A stretch of DNA of 46,784 nucleotides from Phycisphaerae bacterium (GTDB taxonomy: Bacteria > Planctomycetota > Phycisphaerae > Sedimentisphaerales > UBA12454), in the NCBI GenBank assembly GCA_026386845.1, contig JAPLMW010000002.1, forward strand, positions 1 to 46,784. The letters run 5' to 3'. The stretch's first letter is position 1. Each line of letters starts with the position of its first letter. Position numbers and translations under genes: made by a program. The notes beneath the pieces were generated by a model, which was given only the letters and a program-made list of their open reading frames with translations, was not told where the DNA came from and searched no databases. This document shows positions 11,067 through 42,961 of this stretch, in pieces.

Positions 11067-11162
11067 AAGTCTTTGTCTATAAATAAGTTATATACAAACC
11101 TGTTTTCCTGCCATTACTAATATCGGCAATAAAACTATAGGACTAAACGGATGATTTTTCGT

Positions 11163-11225
11163 CCCGTTAGAAACAAGGCATTTATGATGCCTGACGGCTG
11201 CCAAAGGTAGCCCGTTTCTAACGGG
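11163..11225. repeat. 63-bp palindromic element, copy 1 (at the queD stop)
   Basis: Bounded by CCCGTTAG and CTAACGGG, with two internal hairpins (GGCAT/ATGCC and CTGCC AAA GGTAG). It aligns over its full length with copies at 16783-16845 and 42593-42655. Its right arm contains the TAG stop codon of queD (11218-11220 on the minus strand). Confidence 0.85.
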
Positions 11226-11586
11226 ATTCGCCGTATCTGGTTTTGCAGCCCGGCGTTTCCGTTACTTCTACATATAGCAAATCGATATTTTTAGGCAACT
11301 GGCTTTTTATACTGTCGTAAATATATCGGGCGACATTTTCAGCGGAAGCATTGGTATTTTCAAAGCATTCTAAATCTTCCAGTTTCCGCCCGTCAAGCCG
11401 GCACACTATGCTTTCCAGAATTTTTTTGAGCTTATTAAAATCGAAAAGCAAACCATTATCGTCGAGACCCTGGCCGCCGACAGCCGCTTCAGCTTTCCAG
11501 TCGTGCCTGTGACAGGATTCCGTCATATCAGCGAATTTAAGCTGATGGCTCGCGCGAAAATTTGTTGTTACGGCTATTCTATACAA
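11218..11586 (-). CDS. queD: QueD/6-pyruvoyltetrahydropterin synthase-family protein
   Basis: 122 residues, the size of QueD, which makes 6-carboxytetrahydropterin from dihydroneopterin triphosphate in queuosine synthesis. Zinc ligands appear as the His of FRASHQL and both His of CHRHDW. DFNKLKKILES, LECFENTNASAENVA and the terminal VTETPGCKTRYGE match the family. The catalytic Cys normally sits four residues before the HxH. Here the only Cys lies directly before it, so activity toward the usual substrate is uncertain. The stop codon falls inside a 63-bp palindrome. The gene overlaps coaD by 13 bases. No other queuosine gene is near. Confidence 0.82.
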   Translation of the reverse strand: MYRIAVTTNFRASHQLKFADMTESCHRHDWKAEAAVGGQGLDDNGLLFDFNKLKKILESIVCRLDGRKLEDLECFENTNASAENVARYIYDSIKSQLPKNIDLLYVEVTETPGCKTRYGESR

Positions 11587-14955: not shown

Positions 14956-15291
14956 ATTATACCCTTAAATCGGGCGGAAAACAATGAAAAATACGGCGAA
15001 GCCGTTCCTATAACTAACGACTATCGACTAAAAACTAACGACTTGCTATGTCCAGATAAGCAAAAATGCGCAACAAAAAAGTTGCGCGCTTTGAAAAAAT
15101 AAAAAAATTTTTCTCCATATTTAATAAACACTTACGAATTCCAGACAAAATTTTCTTGATCAAATTTCGACAAAAACGCGCAACCTTTCAGGTAATACGG
15201 AAGGGCATAGTTAGCCCCTCGGCCTTAATTCGCCGAAGCCTTGGCGAAGGCGGATGCCGAGGGGTTCAGAGATTTAAAACAGGAGATAAAA
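14956..15291. repeat. Intergenic region with repeats upstream of the HNH gene
   Basis: No gene seen in the first 240 bases. It holds an ACTAACGACTATCGACTA-type repeat (about 15012-15045), related to 3757-3785. A GC-rich hairpin, TTAGCCCCTCGG...CCGAGGGGTT (15210-15266), encloses a copy of the CGCCGAAGCC/GGCGAAGGCGG repeat. The region also has AT-rich stretches (15100-15180). Confidence 0.55.
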
Positions 15292-15981
15292 ATGTATATA
15301 AAATTTCAAATTAAAATTCCGGCATTCATCGAAACCATCGTTGTTTATTTTCTCCTGCGCTGTCGGAAAAAACACTTCGGCTGCGCCTTTCGTAAAATCA
15401 AACTAACCAAAGGCAAATTTGCTATTGTCAGTCCCGAAGATTACGGAAAACTATCCGACGAAGATTGGCAATGTGTTGAAACCAATGGTAACAATTCGTA
15501 TGCAGCAAGAATTGAGCGGGGGAAAATCATATATATGCACAGAATTATTATGGATGCGCCTGCCGGCAAAATTGTTGACCATAGAAATCGTGAAGGTCTC
15601 GATAATACCAGAAAAAATCTGCGTTTTGCAACTCGCTCTCAAAACACCTGTAATAGCATGACAAAAAAAGGGGGTACTTCAAAATACAGAGGAGTCAGTT
15701 TTCAGAAACATAGAAGGAAATGGGTGTCTGTTATACGATATGATGGAAAAACTAAGTATTTAGGTCTTTTTACTAACGAGGAAGACGCCGCAAGGGCTTA
15801 TGACGAGGCGGCAAAAATTTATCACGGCGAGTTCGCCGTCCTGAACTTTCCCGATGAACCGCAAAACCAAAAGTGTTTAGCCCCCAGTTTTACTGGGGGT
15901 TTTATTCCCCAGATTATTGTTGCCGCAACCGCGATTTGGAGTAAATTAGTAGTTCAGGTTATTAACGTAAAGGAACGGATT
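15292..15981 (+). CDS. HNH endonuclease with AP2 DNA-binding domain (stop codon lost, reads into UPF0210 gene)
   Basis: Start ATG 15292 follows AGGAG at a spacing of 6. The HNH core is MHRIIMDAPAGKIVDHRN...LDNTRKNLRFATRSQN (about residues 79-118). The AP2 domain SKYRGVSF...KWVSVIRYDGK...YLGLFTNEEDAARAYDEAA..FAVLNFP (about 130-190) follows. Freestanding HNH-AP2 proteins are homing-type mobile nucleases. The recognised domain ends near 15855. No stop follows, because the frame stays open through a hairpin at 15878-15904 and enters the UPF0210 gene, giving one open frame to 17412. Either a true fusion or a stop lost when the hairpin inserted. The end coordinate given is simply where the next gene begins. 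Confidence 0.7.
15878..15904. repeat. TTAGCCCC-family hairpin at the HNH/UPF0210 junction
   Basis: TAGCCCCCAG-TTTTA-CTGGGGGTTTTA hairpin. Its 5' TTAGCCCC and 3' GGGGTT ends recur in palindromes at 13146, 15210, 29125, 29861 and 29899. It resembles a terminator with a weak T tail, but is translated in the open frame. Confidence 0.65.
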
Positions 15982-17412
15982 ATGAGAATATCGGTTGAAG
16001 AGGTTTTTGAGACGGTAAGGATGACTATCGAGCAGAATTTCGATATCAGGACTGTTACGCTCGGCGTCAATCTTAAAGACTGTATTGACAGGAACCTTAC
16101 GGCCTTTAACAAAAGAATTTTTAAACGTATTTCCGAGATGGGCAAACGTCTTAACAAATGCGCCGACCAGCTCGAGCAGAAATACGGCATACCCATTACG
16201 AACAGGCGAATAAGCGTAACGCCGGTTGCGCTGCTTATTGAGCCGCTGCCGAGAAGAATCTCAACTGCTGTATCAGTCGCCAAAACGCTCGACAGGGCCG
16301 CAAAGGCGGCGGATATTGATTTCATCGGCGGATTCGGCGCTCTCGTTCATAAAGGTATGACTGGCGCTGATGAACTTTTGATAGATTCTATTCCGCAGGC
16401 TATATCGCAGACGCAGAGACTATGCGCTTTTCTTAATCTGGCTTCCAGCAGGGCGGGTATGAATATGACTGCTATTGAAAAGGTCGGGCATATCATTAAA
16501 GACCTTGCCGCAAAAAGCAAAAACGGCATTGGCTGCGCGAAGCTTGCCGTATTTGCCAATGTGCCGGAGGACAATCCTTTTATGGCAGGCGCCCATCACG
16601 GAATTGGCGAACCGGACTTTTCATTAAATATCGGCATATCAGGCCCCGGCGTGGTTCGTGATGTCGTTGCGAACAATCCCAAATGTGATTTAACTGCTTT
16701 GTCGGAGGTTATAAAGAGGACTGTTTTTAAGATTACGCGAGCAGGCGAGCTTGTTGGCCGGGAAATTGCGCAAATGATGAATCCCGTTAGAGACAAGACA
16801 TCAAAGATGTCTGACGGCCGCCAAAGGCGACCTGTCTCTAACGGGATGAAGGTTGATTTCGGCATAGTTGATATTTCGCTTGCCTCGACGCCAAAAAGAG
16901 GAGATTCGGTAGCTGAAATAATTGAAGCTATGGGTGTATCGCGTATTGGCCGTCCGGGTTCGACCGCCGCCCTTGCGATGTTAATGGATGCGGTAAAGAA
17001 AGGTGGTGCTATGGCATCTGGAAATGTCGGGGGGCTGAGCGGCACGTTTATTCCAGTAAGTGAAGATGCCGGTATGATAAAAGCAGTTCAAACAGGAGCG
17101 CTTAGCCTTGAAAAACTTGAAGCCCTCACAAGCGTTTGTTCTGTAGGCTTAGATATGTTTGCGGTTGCAGGAGACACGCCGGCGGATGTTATAAGTGCTA
17201 TACTCGCTGATGAGCTTGCAATCGGCGTTGTGAATAATAAGACAACAAGCGTGAGAATTATACCGGTGCCGGGGAAAAAGGCGGGACAGATTGTTCATTT
17301 CGGAGGACTGTTAGGCTCGGCGCCAATTATGAGAATCTCGAAAATTGCTTCGCCGGATTTTATAAAACGCAAAGGCCGAATCCCAGCCCAGGTCGGGGCG
17401 TTAAGAAATTAA
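15982..17412 (+). CDS. UPF0210/DUF711 (PFL-family) protein with in-frame palindrome insertion
   Basis: 476 residues from ATG 15982, which has AAAGGAA 6 bases upstream. The family normally has about 450. Conserved stretches are IGGFGALVHKGMT, AFLNLASSRAGMNMTAIEKVG, FANVPEDNPFMAGAHHGIGEPD, ISGPGVVRDVV, DFGIVDISLASTP, GRPGSTAALAMLMDA and GNVGGLSGTFIPVSED. Biochemical function is not established for the family. Residues 267-288 (NPVRDKTSKM...RPVSNG) come from a 63-bp palindrome and have no place in the family pattern, where the segment before DFGIVD is short. The same frame is open upstream through the HNH-AP2 gene. No UPF0237/ACT partner gene is adjacent. Confidence 0.88.
   Translation: MRISVEEVFETVRMTIEQNFDIRTVTLGVNLKDCIDRNLTAFNKRIFKRISEMGKRLNKCADQLEQKYGIPITNRRISVTPVALLIEPLPRRISTAVSVAKTLDRAAKAADIDFIGGFGALVHKGMTGADELLIDSIPQAISQTQRLCAFLNLASSRAGMNMTAIEKVGHIIKDLAAKSKNGIGCAKLAVFANVPEDNPFMAGAHHGIGEPDFSLNIGISGPGVVRDVVANNPKCDLTALSEVIKRTVFKITRAGELVGREIAQMMNPVRDKTSKMSDGRQRRPVSNGMKVDFGIVDISLASTPKRGDSVAEIIEAMGVSRIGRPGSTAALAMLMDAVKKGGAMASGNVGGLSGTFIPVSEDAGMIKAVQTGALSLEKLEALTSVCSVGLDMFAVAGDTPADVISAILADELAIGVVNNKTTSVRIIPVPGKKAGQIVHFGGLLGSAPIMRISKIASPDFIKRKGRIPAQVGALRN
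16783..16845. repeat. 63-bp palindromic element, copy 2 (in frame in the UPF0210 gene)
   Basis: CCCGTTAG...CTAACGGG with inner hairpins GACAT/ATGTC and CGCC AAA GGCG. Same length as copies 1 and 3. Stem positions that differ from copy 1 do so in pairs (GGCAT/ATGCC versus GACAT/ATGTC). It encodes 21 residues read in the same frame as copy 3 in rnpA. Confidence 0.85.
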
Positions 17413-42267: not shown

Positions 42268-42522
42268 TCAACAATTTTTTTTGTCTGCATCAGGCGAATC
42301 AAAACCGGCGGGACCGAAGGGATGGCATCGCAAAATTCGTCTTGCCGCCATATAGACGCCTTTGACTGCGCCGAACTGCCTTACCGCTTCAATGGCGTAT
42401 TCACTGCAGCTCGGCACAAACCTGCATTGACCGCCAAGGAACAATCCCAAGCTCGATTGATAAAGCCTGATTGCGAGAATAACCGTTTCTTTGACAAGAC
42501 TATTTATTATGTCTTTTTTCAA
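42268..42522 (-). CDS. yidD: Membrane protein insertion efficiency factor YidD
   Basis: 84 residues from TTG 42522 (GAAGGGA lies about 9 bases upstream). TTG 42546 is an alternative adding 8 residues. The conserved YidD core is IRLYQSSLGLFLGGQCRFVPSCSEYAIEAVRQFGAVKG, then RRILRCHPFGPAGFD, with the three Cys of the family. YidD assists YidC-mediated insertion of membrane proteins. It overlaps the end of rnpA by some 20 bases, the common rnpA-yidD order. yidC is not downstream here. Confidence 0.9.
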   Translation of the reverse strand: MKKDIINSLVKETVILAIRLYQSSLGLFLGGQCRFVPSCSEYAIEAVRQFGAVKGVYMAARRILRCHPFGPAGFDSPDADKKNC

Positions 42523-42961
42523 AAAGCCGCTGTCCCTTCTCAGCAAGTTCCATAAAGCTTTGCCTGACTTCGTTTAAGGTGATTTTCTTTATCCCGTTAG
42601 AAGTAGGCTGCCTTGGGCAGCCGTCAGGCATCTTTGATGCCTTACCTCTAACGGGATTTATATCAGAACGGGACCATTTCGACAACATTGGAGAATAGAT
42701 TAAAAGATAATCAAAGCCGGCCGCAATCTCGTTTTGGCTCAAACGGAATGCCTCTCTGGCAAGCCTTTTGAGTCTGTTTCTGATGACTGCGGGGGCGGTT
42801 TTTGCGCTTATGGAGGCGGCAAATCTTGACCTTGAGGCACCGTTAGGAGCCATATGTAAAGTCATTAAGTTGTTTTTGGCAAACAACTTATAATCCAAAA
42901 CCGCCCTGAAATCGGATTTTGAAGTCAGCCTTGCAGATTTTGGAAATCTATATTTTGGCAT
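42500..42961 (-). CDS. rnpA: Ribonuclease P protein component with in-frame palindrome insertion
   Basis: 153 residues, against the usual 110-125. RnpA binds RNase P RNA and helps mature tRNA 5' ends. Seen: FPKSARLTSKSDFRAVL, AASISAKTAPAVIRNRLKRLAREAFRLSQ (RNR motif) and DYLLIYSP. Residues about 102-124 (NPVRGKASKM...PTSNG) are encoded by a 63-bp palindrome placed between the central fold and the last helix (LNEVRQSFMELAEKG). rpmH, normally upstream, is not present. pntB ends 77 bases upstream. Confidence 0.92.
   Translation of the reverse strand: MPKYRFPKSARLTSKSDFRAVLDYKLFAKNNLMTLHMAPNGASRSRFAASISAKTAPAVIRNRLKRLAREAFRLSQNEIAAGFDYLLIYSPMLSKWSRSDINPVRGKASKMPDGCPRQPTSNGIKKITLNEVRQSFMELAEKGQRLFEKRHNK
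42593..42655. repeat. 63-bp palindromic element, copy 3 (in frame in rnpA)
   Basis: CCCGTTAG...CTAACGGG, same length and layout as copies at 11163-11225 and 16783-16845. Outer-stem bases differ from the other copies in a paired way (GGTA/TACT versus GACA/TGTC). It is read in the same frame as copy 2. Confidence 0.88.

Follow-up and report, generated by a model that had tools for sequence, protein, structure and literature searches.

Palindromes within protein genes have long been puzzling because their mobiliser is missing. Those of Rickettsia were reported in 2000, and to our knowledge no mobiliser has become known since. The same question is raised by the window analysed here, a stretch of 46,784 nucleotides from a Planctomycetota MAG (2.40 Mb, 96 contigs), in which three palindromic copies lie in or at the end of protein genes.

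Three palindromic copies and their family

Inspection of the sequence placed the three copies where the initial annotation had them, each exactly 63 bp long. The two inner hairpins described there were recovered, the fold of all three comprising one outer stem and two tri-loop hairpins, with folding energies far beyond those of shuffled sequence (z -6.6 to -9.1). The 63-bp core stood, but the full unit was 65 bp, [Y]CCCGTTAG..CTAACGGG[R], plus a 4-bp target duplication (Table 1). The in-frame addition to the host proteins was likewise upheld, and its size was corrected from 21 to 23 codons, since a 65-bp element with 4 duplicated bp adds a net 69 bp.

Only the rnpA and UPF0210 copies had been counted as genic. 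Both insertions were as described, but copy 1 also touched a gene, one of the PTPS family, at its 3' end. This copy was read in the third, TAG-bearing frame; the minus-strand frame ran ..GAA TCC CGT TAG, so the PTPS-family gene stopped at a TAG belonging to the end of the element itself. The rnpA and UPF0210 copies did have a common reading frame. Of the six frames, forward frame 0 and the +1-type frames were mostly open and the third always met TAG; the common frame is accounted for by two restrictions: on both strands one frame in three always contains TAG, and reverse frame 0 is mostly closed. A homing-endonuclease-like ORF with HNH_3 and AP2 domains (window 15241-16020, plus strand; Pfam PF13392, PF00847) ran in frame into the DUF711 gene and is possibly another mobile nuclease adjoining the same host gene.

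Table 1. Positions, strand and supporting evidence of the window features.
Feature	Positions	Strand	Evidence
65-bp element copy 1 (core 11163-11225)	11162..11226	+	PTPS-family gene 3' end; sequence, fold
Copy 1 left target-site duplication TTCG	11158..11161	+	Sequence; duplication statistics
Copy 1 right target-site duplication TTCG	11227..11230	+	Sequence
PTPS-family gene (6-pyruvoyl tetrahydropterin synthase), ended by element	11218..11586	-	Pfam PF01242 E 2.9e-25
65-bp element copy 2, in frame in DUF711/UPF0210 gene (NPVRDKTSKMSDGRQRRPVSNGM)	16782..16846	+	Empty site in 22/22 orthologues found
Copy 2 left target-site duplication TGAA	16778..16781	+	Sequence; orthologue comparison
Copy 2 right target-site duplication TGAA	16847..16850	+	Sequence; orthologue comparison
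DUF711 (UPF0210) coding part holding copy 2	16021..17412	+	Pfam PF05167 E 1.8e-166 across insertion
65-bp element copy 3, in frame near rnpA C-terminus (NPVRGKASKMPDGCPRQPTSNGI)	42592..42656	-	Insertion absent in 13/14 relatives
Copy 3 target-site duplication TTTA (gene sense TAAA)	42588..42591	+	Empty site GATATAAAG in relatives
Copy 3 target-site duplication TTTA (gene sense TAAA)	42657..42660	+	Sequence; relatives
rnpA, host of copy 3	42500..42961	-	Pfam PF00825 E 8.6e-21

The pattern CCCGTTAG-N40..65-CTAACGGG occurred at 30 places in the window's genome and the reversed control pattern at none. Single 9-mer ends occurred about 70 times per strand, compared with 12 for the control. Pairing of the ends (CCCGTTAGA/TCTAACGGG) gave at least 51 distinct elements of 41-299 bp. 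About 25 of these formed the 63-bp family, some of them shortened in one arm to 57-60 bp; the remainder had identical ends and different interiors. The same copies were also found in the relatives Phycisphaerae STB_133 (G007) and HGW-Planctomycetes-1 (G008). The family proposed from three copies was borne out.

A 102-bp version of the 63-mer (L035:1501-1602, contig C40) lay inside an RNase R gene (RNB domain), its first arm holding a nested further palindrome (CCCGCCTCGACTC..GAGTCGGGCGAGGCGGG). Two FAD-oxidase paralogues (L014 and L022, contigs C61 and C70) had 63-mers that were nearly identical and sat at roughly the same place in the protein, which would reflect a single insertion preceding the duplication or two separate insertions.

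In an alignment of 25 copies, 15 of 28 pairs had changed on both sides (shuffled mean 7.8), as had 39 cells (shuffled mean 11.2). None of 500 shuffles was as high for either count, and 93.1% of cells were paired. The paired changes seen in three copies thus persisted in the larger alignment. The proposal that the fold and not the sequence is kept applied to the inner stem and arms, which covaried, but not to the 9 bp at each end, which were invariant in the aligned copies. These invariant CCCGTTAGA ends are terminal inverted repeats of the kind expected of MITEs, and the outer stem was 98.6% paired. Template-switch correction of palindromes is a possible alternative source of paired changes. 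Rfam covariance models applied to the window at the gathering threshold gave 0 matches.

Target duplications, empty sites and insertion niches

Alignment of the flanks of 51 elements from the window's genome gave a 4-bp duplication, the core positions of which were identical in 45-49 of 51. Hexamers matched at five or more of six positions in 39 of 51 (shuffled mean 6.8, maximum 16). The terminal base pair outside CCC/GGG was complementary in every copy and was Y.R in 50 of 51. A 6-bp target duplication was rejected, since the outer positions matched in only 27 and 30 of 51 and the terminal bases always paired; this combination indicates a 4-bp duplication plus a Y.R terminal pair. The duplicated target was YNNR, with TGAA/TTCA within RTGAAY preferred, and is thus a target duplication as in MITEs. 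In the named MAGs, exact 4-bp duplications were present at 66 of 95 elements.

The inserted peptide was not ancestral, a possibility the initial annotation had raised: it was lacking from all of the DUF711 orthologues found and from all but one of the RnpA orthologues in relatives (Table 1). Each DUF711 orthologue had the exact empty site, for example GATGATGAAC followed by GTTGAT compared with GATGAAT[element]ATGAAGGTTGAT when filled, with a net gain of 69 bp in the element-bearing gene. The exception among RnpA orthologues was HGW-Planctomycetes-1 (L310), which had a diverged copy at the identical site. The two rnpA copies, from two genera, had the same rare GAGGY stem, differed at many positions and were separated by a compensated T-A to C-G change. 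On this comparison, the rnpA insertion is probably old and has been retained in an essential gene. The insertion was common to the two genera (L310 and window 42592-42656) and was absent in other members of the genus of HGW-Planctomycetes-1, a distribution that would reflect precise loss, local transfer or parallel insertion. At the level of sequence comparison, the duplications and empty sites show that the 63-bp palindromes are mobile.

In-gene hosts included UDG, RsmD, DUF711, RnpA, Fe-ADH and two FAD oxidases, and further a TGS GTPase, shikimate kinase, TrmB and Sua5. The length of 50-70-bp elements was a multiple of three in 23 of 27 cases in the window's genome (binomial p 4e-8) and in 48 of 62 in other phyla (binomial p 1e-12), p values that overstate the evidence because copies of one family are not independent. 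Longer elements had no such bias (8 of 23 and 9 of 28, respectively). Inside ORFs, lengths were multiples of three in 21 of 22 and 41 of 42 elements, a test with some circularity, as any insert that shifted the frame would destroy the ORF; the bias across all 50-70-bp elements escapes this.

Approximately 14 of the 24 elements outside the 57-67-bp class in the window's genome directly abutted a start codon, and their ends contained a Shine-Dalgarno-like stretch (..AAAGGAGGTCTAACGGG or ..AAAAAGGATTTCTAACGGG immediately before ATG). The ORFs downstream encoded 77-427 aa, most with an in-frame stop shortly upstream. Longer elements thus often furnish a putative Shine-Dalgarno sequence to the downstream gene, and short ones lie in frame within genes. 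Short elements would survive in genes because 65+4 = 69 bp preserves the frame and the frames are open. At start codons, longer elements would survive because their duplicated target, often ATGAA, gives back the ATG, with the Shine-Dalgarno sequence coming from the element end.

GIY-YIG-coding members and the movement of the family

The initial annotation had covered a single size class and proposed no mobiliser. Full-length members with the same ends were about 263-299 bp and had as sole gene a GIY-YIG nuclease of roughly 85-105 aa. In the window's genome, L029 (G000:C22:653-951) had these ends and encoded from end to end a 103-aa GIY-YIG protein (MTSPVRPLWFYTYVL..KGGLTG, stop). The nuclease belongs to the GIY-YIG nuclease superfamily by domain (Pfam PF01541, E 5.9e-13 and 7.9e-18), by catalytic residues (Y, Y, R, H and E, all invariant) and by the fold of a predicted model (pLDDT 89), which matched UPF0213 (1zg2), Slx1 and I-TevI. 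dN/dS was about 0.1 in close measurable pairs, and pN was below pS in 119 of 120 pairs; on these estimates the element nuclease is under purifying selection. The nuclease gene usually drew its stop codon from the right duplication (GGR TGA or GGG TAA); in elements of the GACC type, the left flank provided the start codon (ATG AAT CCC GTT AGA). In a tree of 96 GIY-YIG domains, the CCCGTTAG-ended domains grouped (1 label change, shuffled 14.2), on a branch with weak support. This shows ends and gene to be inherited jointly as one unit, as judged from the sequences, which by itself is no proof of end recognition by the nuclease.

Four elements of about 100 bp with GACCT-type ends in the window's genome (L030, L040, L043 and L044) were deletion remnants of the nuclease element, being matched by 0-1 of 1000 dinucleotide shuffles. 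Extension of this origin to all elements of about 98 bp was rejected, as L028, L031 and the AAATC-type fell within the 1000 shuffles and L037 was borderline. With regard to the autonomous relative expected of MITEs, the four remnants derive from the GIY-YIG element, whereas the 63-mers share only its ends.

GARAC-type palindromes were scanned for in 84,980 species genomes. Among the matches listed were Patescibacteria, Omnitrophota, Planctomycetota, Nitrospirae, Cloacimonadota and one Nanoarchaeota MAG, together with a Marinimicrobium contig that may be chance; single contigs are open to MAG binning errors. Many GIY-YIG elements of Patescibacteria, Omnitrophota and Planctomycetota had exact duplications (for example TGAA, TAAA and TGGA). 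A 244-304-bp bounded element occurred in only five of 392 Planctomycetota genomes, so the family is patchy in the phylum; three of the five encoded GIY-YIG. Four viral contigs matched the end spacing, none of which encoded the nuclease or held GARAC palindromes, and a search for a viral or plasmid vehicle for the nuclease gave no phage match and one weak yazA match on a plasmid.

The idea that all GIY-YIG genes of relatives have CCCGTTAG ends was rejected: among 69 domain matches, the exact ends were present only on L029. L068 had variant ends (CCTGTTAG), and for the other matches the ends differed or none were found. Small GIY-YIG genes in relatives were flanked by inverted repeats of 13 bp or more in 27 of 67 cases, compared with 7 of 231 control windows. 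Other GIY-YIG elements of about 280-330 bp had the ends CCCGCACC, CCTGTTAG and CCCTCACACC, which are CC-ends, two with TGAA on both sides, and further GIY-YIG genes lay between common dispersed palindromes (GTCATTCCCGCG.., GTCATTTCGAGCG..). A separate GIY-YIG clade (L054, L056, L058, L079, L094, L095, L101-L103, L105 and L106) was flanked by the common dispersed palindromes GTCATTCCCGCGAAAGCGGGAATCC, GTCATTTCGAGCGAAGC..AGAAATCT and GTCATTGCGAGG. GIY-YIG ORFs with inverted ends of about 19 bp (L064 in G039, and L066 and L097, two copies in the closed genome G014) lay in what by eye appeared to be a 23S rRNA gene, in a hairpin before GAAGCCCCGGTAAACGGCGG; they look like an intervening sequence of rRNA that codes for protein and is built in the same way. 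In the window's genome, a GIY-YIG element with CCCTCACACCAATGG ends (L078, C33:6342-8154) lay at what, again by eye, appeared to be the start codon of a 6-phosphofructokinase gene.

These observations are likely to be explained by a minimal GIY-YIG transposon family with ends [Y]CCCGTTAGA...TCTAACGGG[R] and 4-bp YNNR duplications, of which the 63-mers would be non-autonomous, MITE-like members. The GIY-YIG nuclease probably moves the family members, its catalysis being inferred. It would recognise the element ends, probably by a folded or cruciform shape, and recognition of a fold would account for pairing being conserved where the inner sequence is not. Slx1-type enzymes are branched-DNA nucleases. 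The nuclease would cut at the element boundary and make cuts staggered by 4 nt in the YNNR target; filling of the gaps would then give the 4-bp duplication. Because we know of no joining of DNA ends by GIY-YIG enzymes, the insertion would need a ligase or a repair step from the host, and host repair would complete it. The 63-mers would be mobilised in trans by the nuclease. This step can only be inferred, because L029, the only intact GIY-YIG copy with CCCGTTAG ends in its genome, had no clean duplication (CAAG/TGAA) and differed from the 63-mers in its subterminal bases (GACCTC compared with mostly GARAC).

An alternative in which the 63-mers are ordinary MITEs that depend for movement in trans on a DDE insertion sequence with CCCGTTAG-like ends that escaped detection, GIY-YIG being a passenger, is considered unlikely. 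In its favour, DDE elements classically combine terminal inverted repeats with a 4-bp duplication of fixed length. MAG assemblies often lose multi-copy IS elements, so a transposase could be unseen, and in some genomes small elements with these ends occurred without GIY-YIG, as in G004, where nine small elements and no GIY-YIG with CCCGTTAG ends were found. However, in 50 genomes taken from the scan of species genomes, 244-304-bp bounded elements were matched in 18 and most encoded GIY-YIG, the others being without GIY-YIG or consisting of neighbouring end pairs. A 235-kb Patescibacteria contig held 12 paired elements, of which the two longest (275 and 277 bp) encoded GIY-YIG and had TTCA duplications, and nothing longer than 277 bp on it was bounded by the ends. 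No CCCGTTAG-bounded element with another transposase, DDE included, was found on this contig or at 244-304 bp in the 50 genomes. The GIY-YIG gene was also the sole gene in elements with other CC-ends, and its strong purifying selection is a further point against a passenger.

Spread of a homing type, in which GIY-YIG would cut empty alleles and the element would be copied by recombination across homologous flanks, is very improbable. GIY-YIG is a homing-nuclease fold (I-TevI), and the identical rnpA site and shared GAGGY stem in two genera would suit such copying, but homing does not yield many unrelated sites, a degenerate YNNR target and short duplications, and the many differences between the two rnpA copies are those expected of an old vertical insertion. 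Least probable is domestication of immobile hairpins retained because they serve the host (through mRNA stability, processing or an extra peptide), which would draw on the strong covariation, the long retention in rnpA and the Shine-Dalgarno supply, but is opposed by insertions scattered over functionally unrelated genes, by empty sites in relatives and intact duplications, by near-identical copies in different genes, by the lack of an Rfam family in the window and by template switching as another route to paired changes.

Relation to known systems

The likeness to Rickettsia palindromic elements (RPEs) drawn in the initial annotation was real for the mode of insertion, in frame within conserved protein genes. 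Wolbachia coding palindromes are, like RPEs, small palindromes of this habit, and in-frame palindrome fusions have been reviewed (PMC10969869). The family resembles RPEs in style; descent is not demonstrated. RPEs are 105-150 bp (PMC2229807, PMC10969869), whereas the elements here are mostly 57-69 bp with a 63-bp core, and RPE target duplication is not established, being listed as '?' (PMC2229807). By description, the present family is set apart by its clear 4-bp duplication, its start-codon niche, its occurrence in several phyla and its nuclease-coding full-length element.

Bacterial MITEs (ERIC, Correia/NEMIS and RUP) are also non-autonomous, with terminal inverted repeats, target duplications and some in-frame fusions (PMC2229807), but here the full-length gene is GIY-YIG and not a DDE transposase, and the target is YNNR and not TA. 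REP/REPIN sequences with RAYT, the REP-associated tyrosine transposase (Y1 HUH), likewise combine dispersed palindromes with one small nuclease in the same genome, and their fold matters. REPs are mostly extragenic (PMC2817692), and unlike the RAYT system the GIY-YIG gene (PF01541) lies inside inverted repeats with 4-bp duplications. GIY-YIG also serves as the endonuclease of a mobile element in homing endonucleases and Penelope-like retroelements (PMC3846280 for the latter), whereas the element here is a TIR-bounded DNA element of about 275 bp with no intron and no reverse transcriptase. Homing elements occupy a homologous-allele site without a short duplication, in contrast to the many unrelated sites and 4-bp duplications found here. 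In the open-licence literature searched, with preprints outside its scope, no prokaryotic transposon with a GIY-YIG nuclease as its only gene was found.

Alone, the 63-mers would be a new family of MITE or RPE style. The GIY-YIG transposon would be an element of a new kind, provided that movement by the nuclease is borne out. A broader claim is advanced tentatively, as a possibility: that small GIY-YIG nucleases are general transposition enzymes for bacterial palindromic repeats, including the clades with CCCGCACC, CCCTCACACC and GTCATTCCCGCG/GTCATTTCGAGCG, and that no known autonomous transposon is smaller than the element of about 275 bp, which takes its stop codon, and sometimes its start codon too, from the duplicated target. 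The Rickettsia palindromes might have a similar origin.

A palindrome family is here tied to a specific small nuclease within the same ends, in several mostly uncultured phyla. If the nuclease moves the elements, transposition would have a new kind of catalyst in a GIY-YIG enzyme, and the lower size limit for an autonomous transposon would fall to about 275 bp. For annotation, the NPVR..SNG and ..SLTG peptides in proteins of Patescibacteria, Omnitrophota and Planctomycetota would be transposon-derived, as would many small GIY-YIG nuclease genes.
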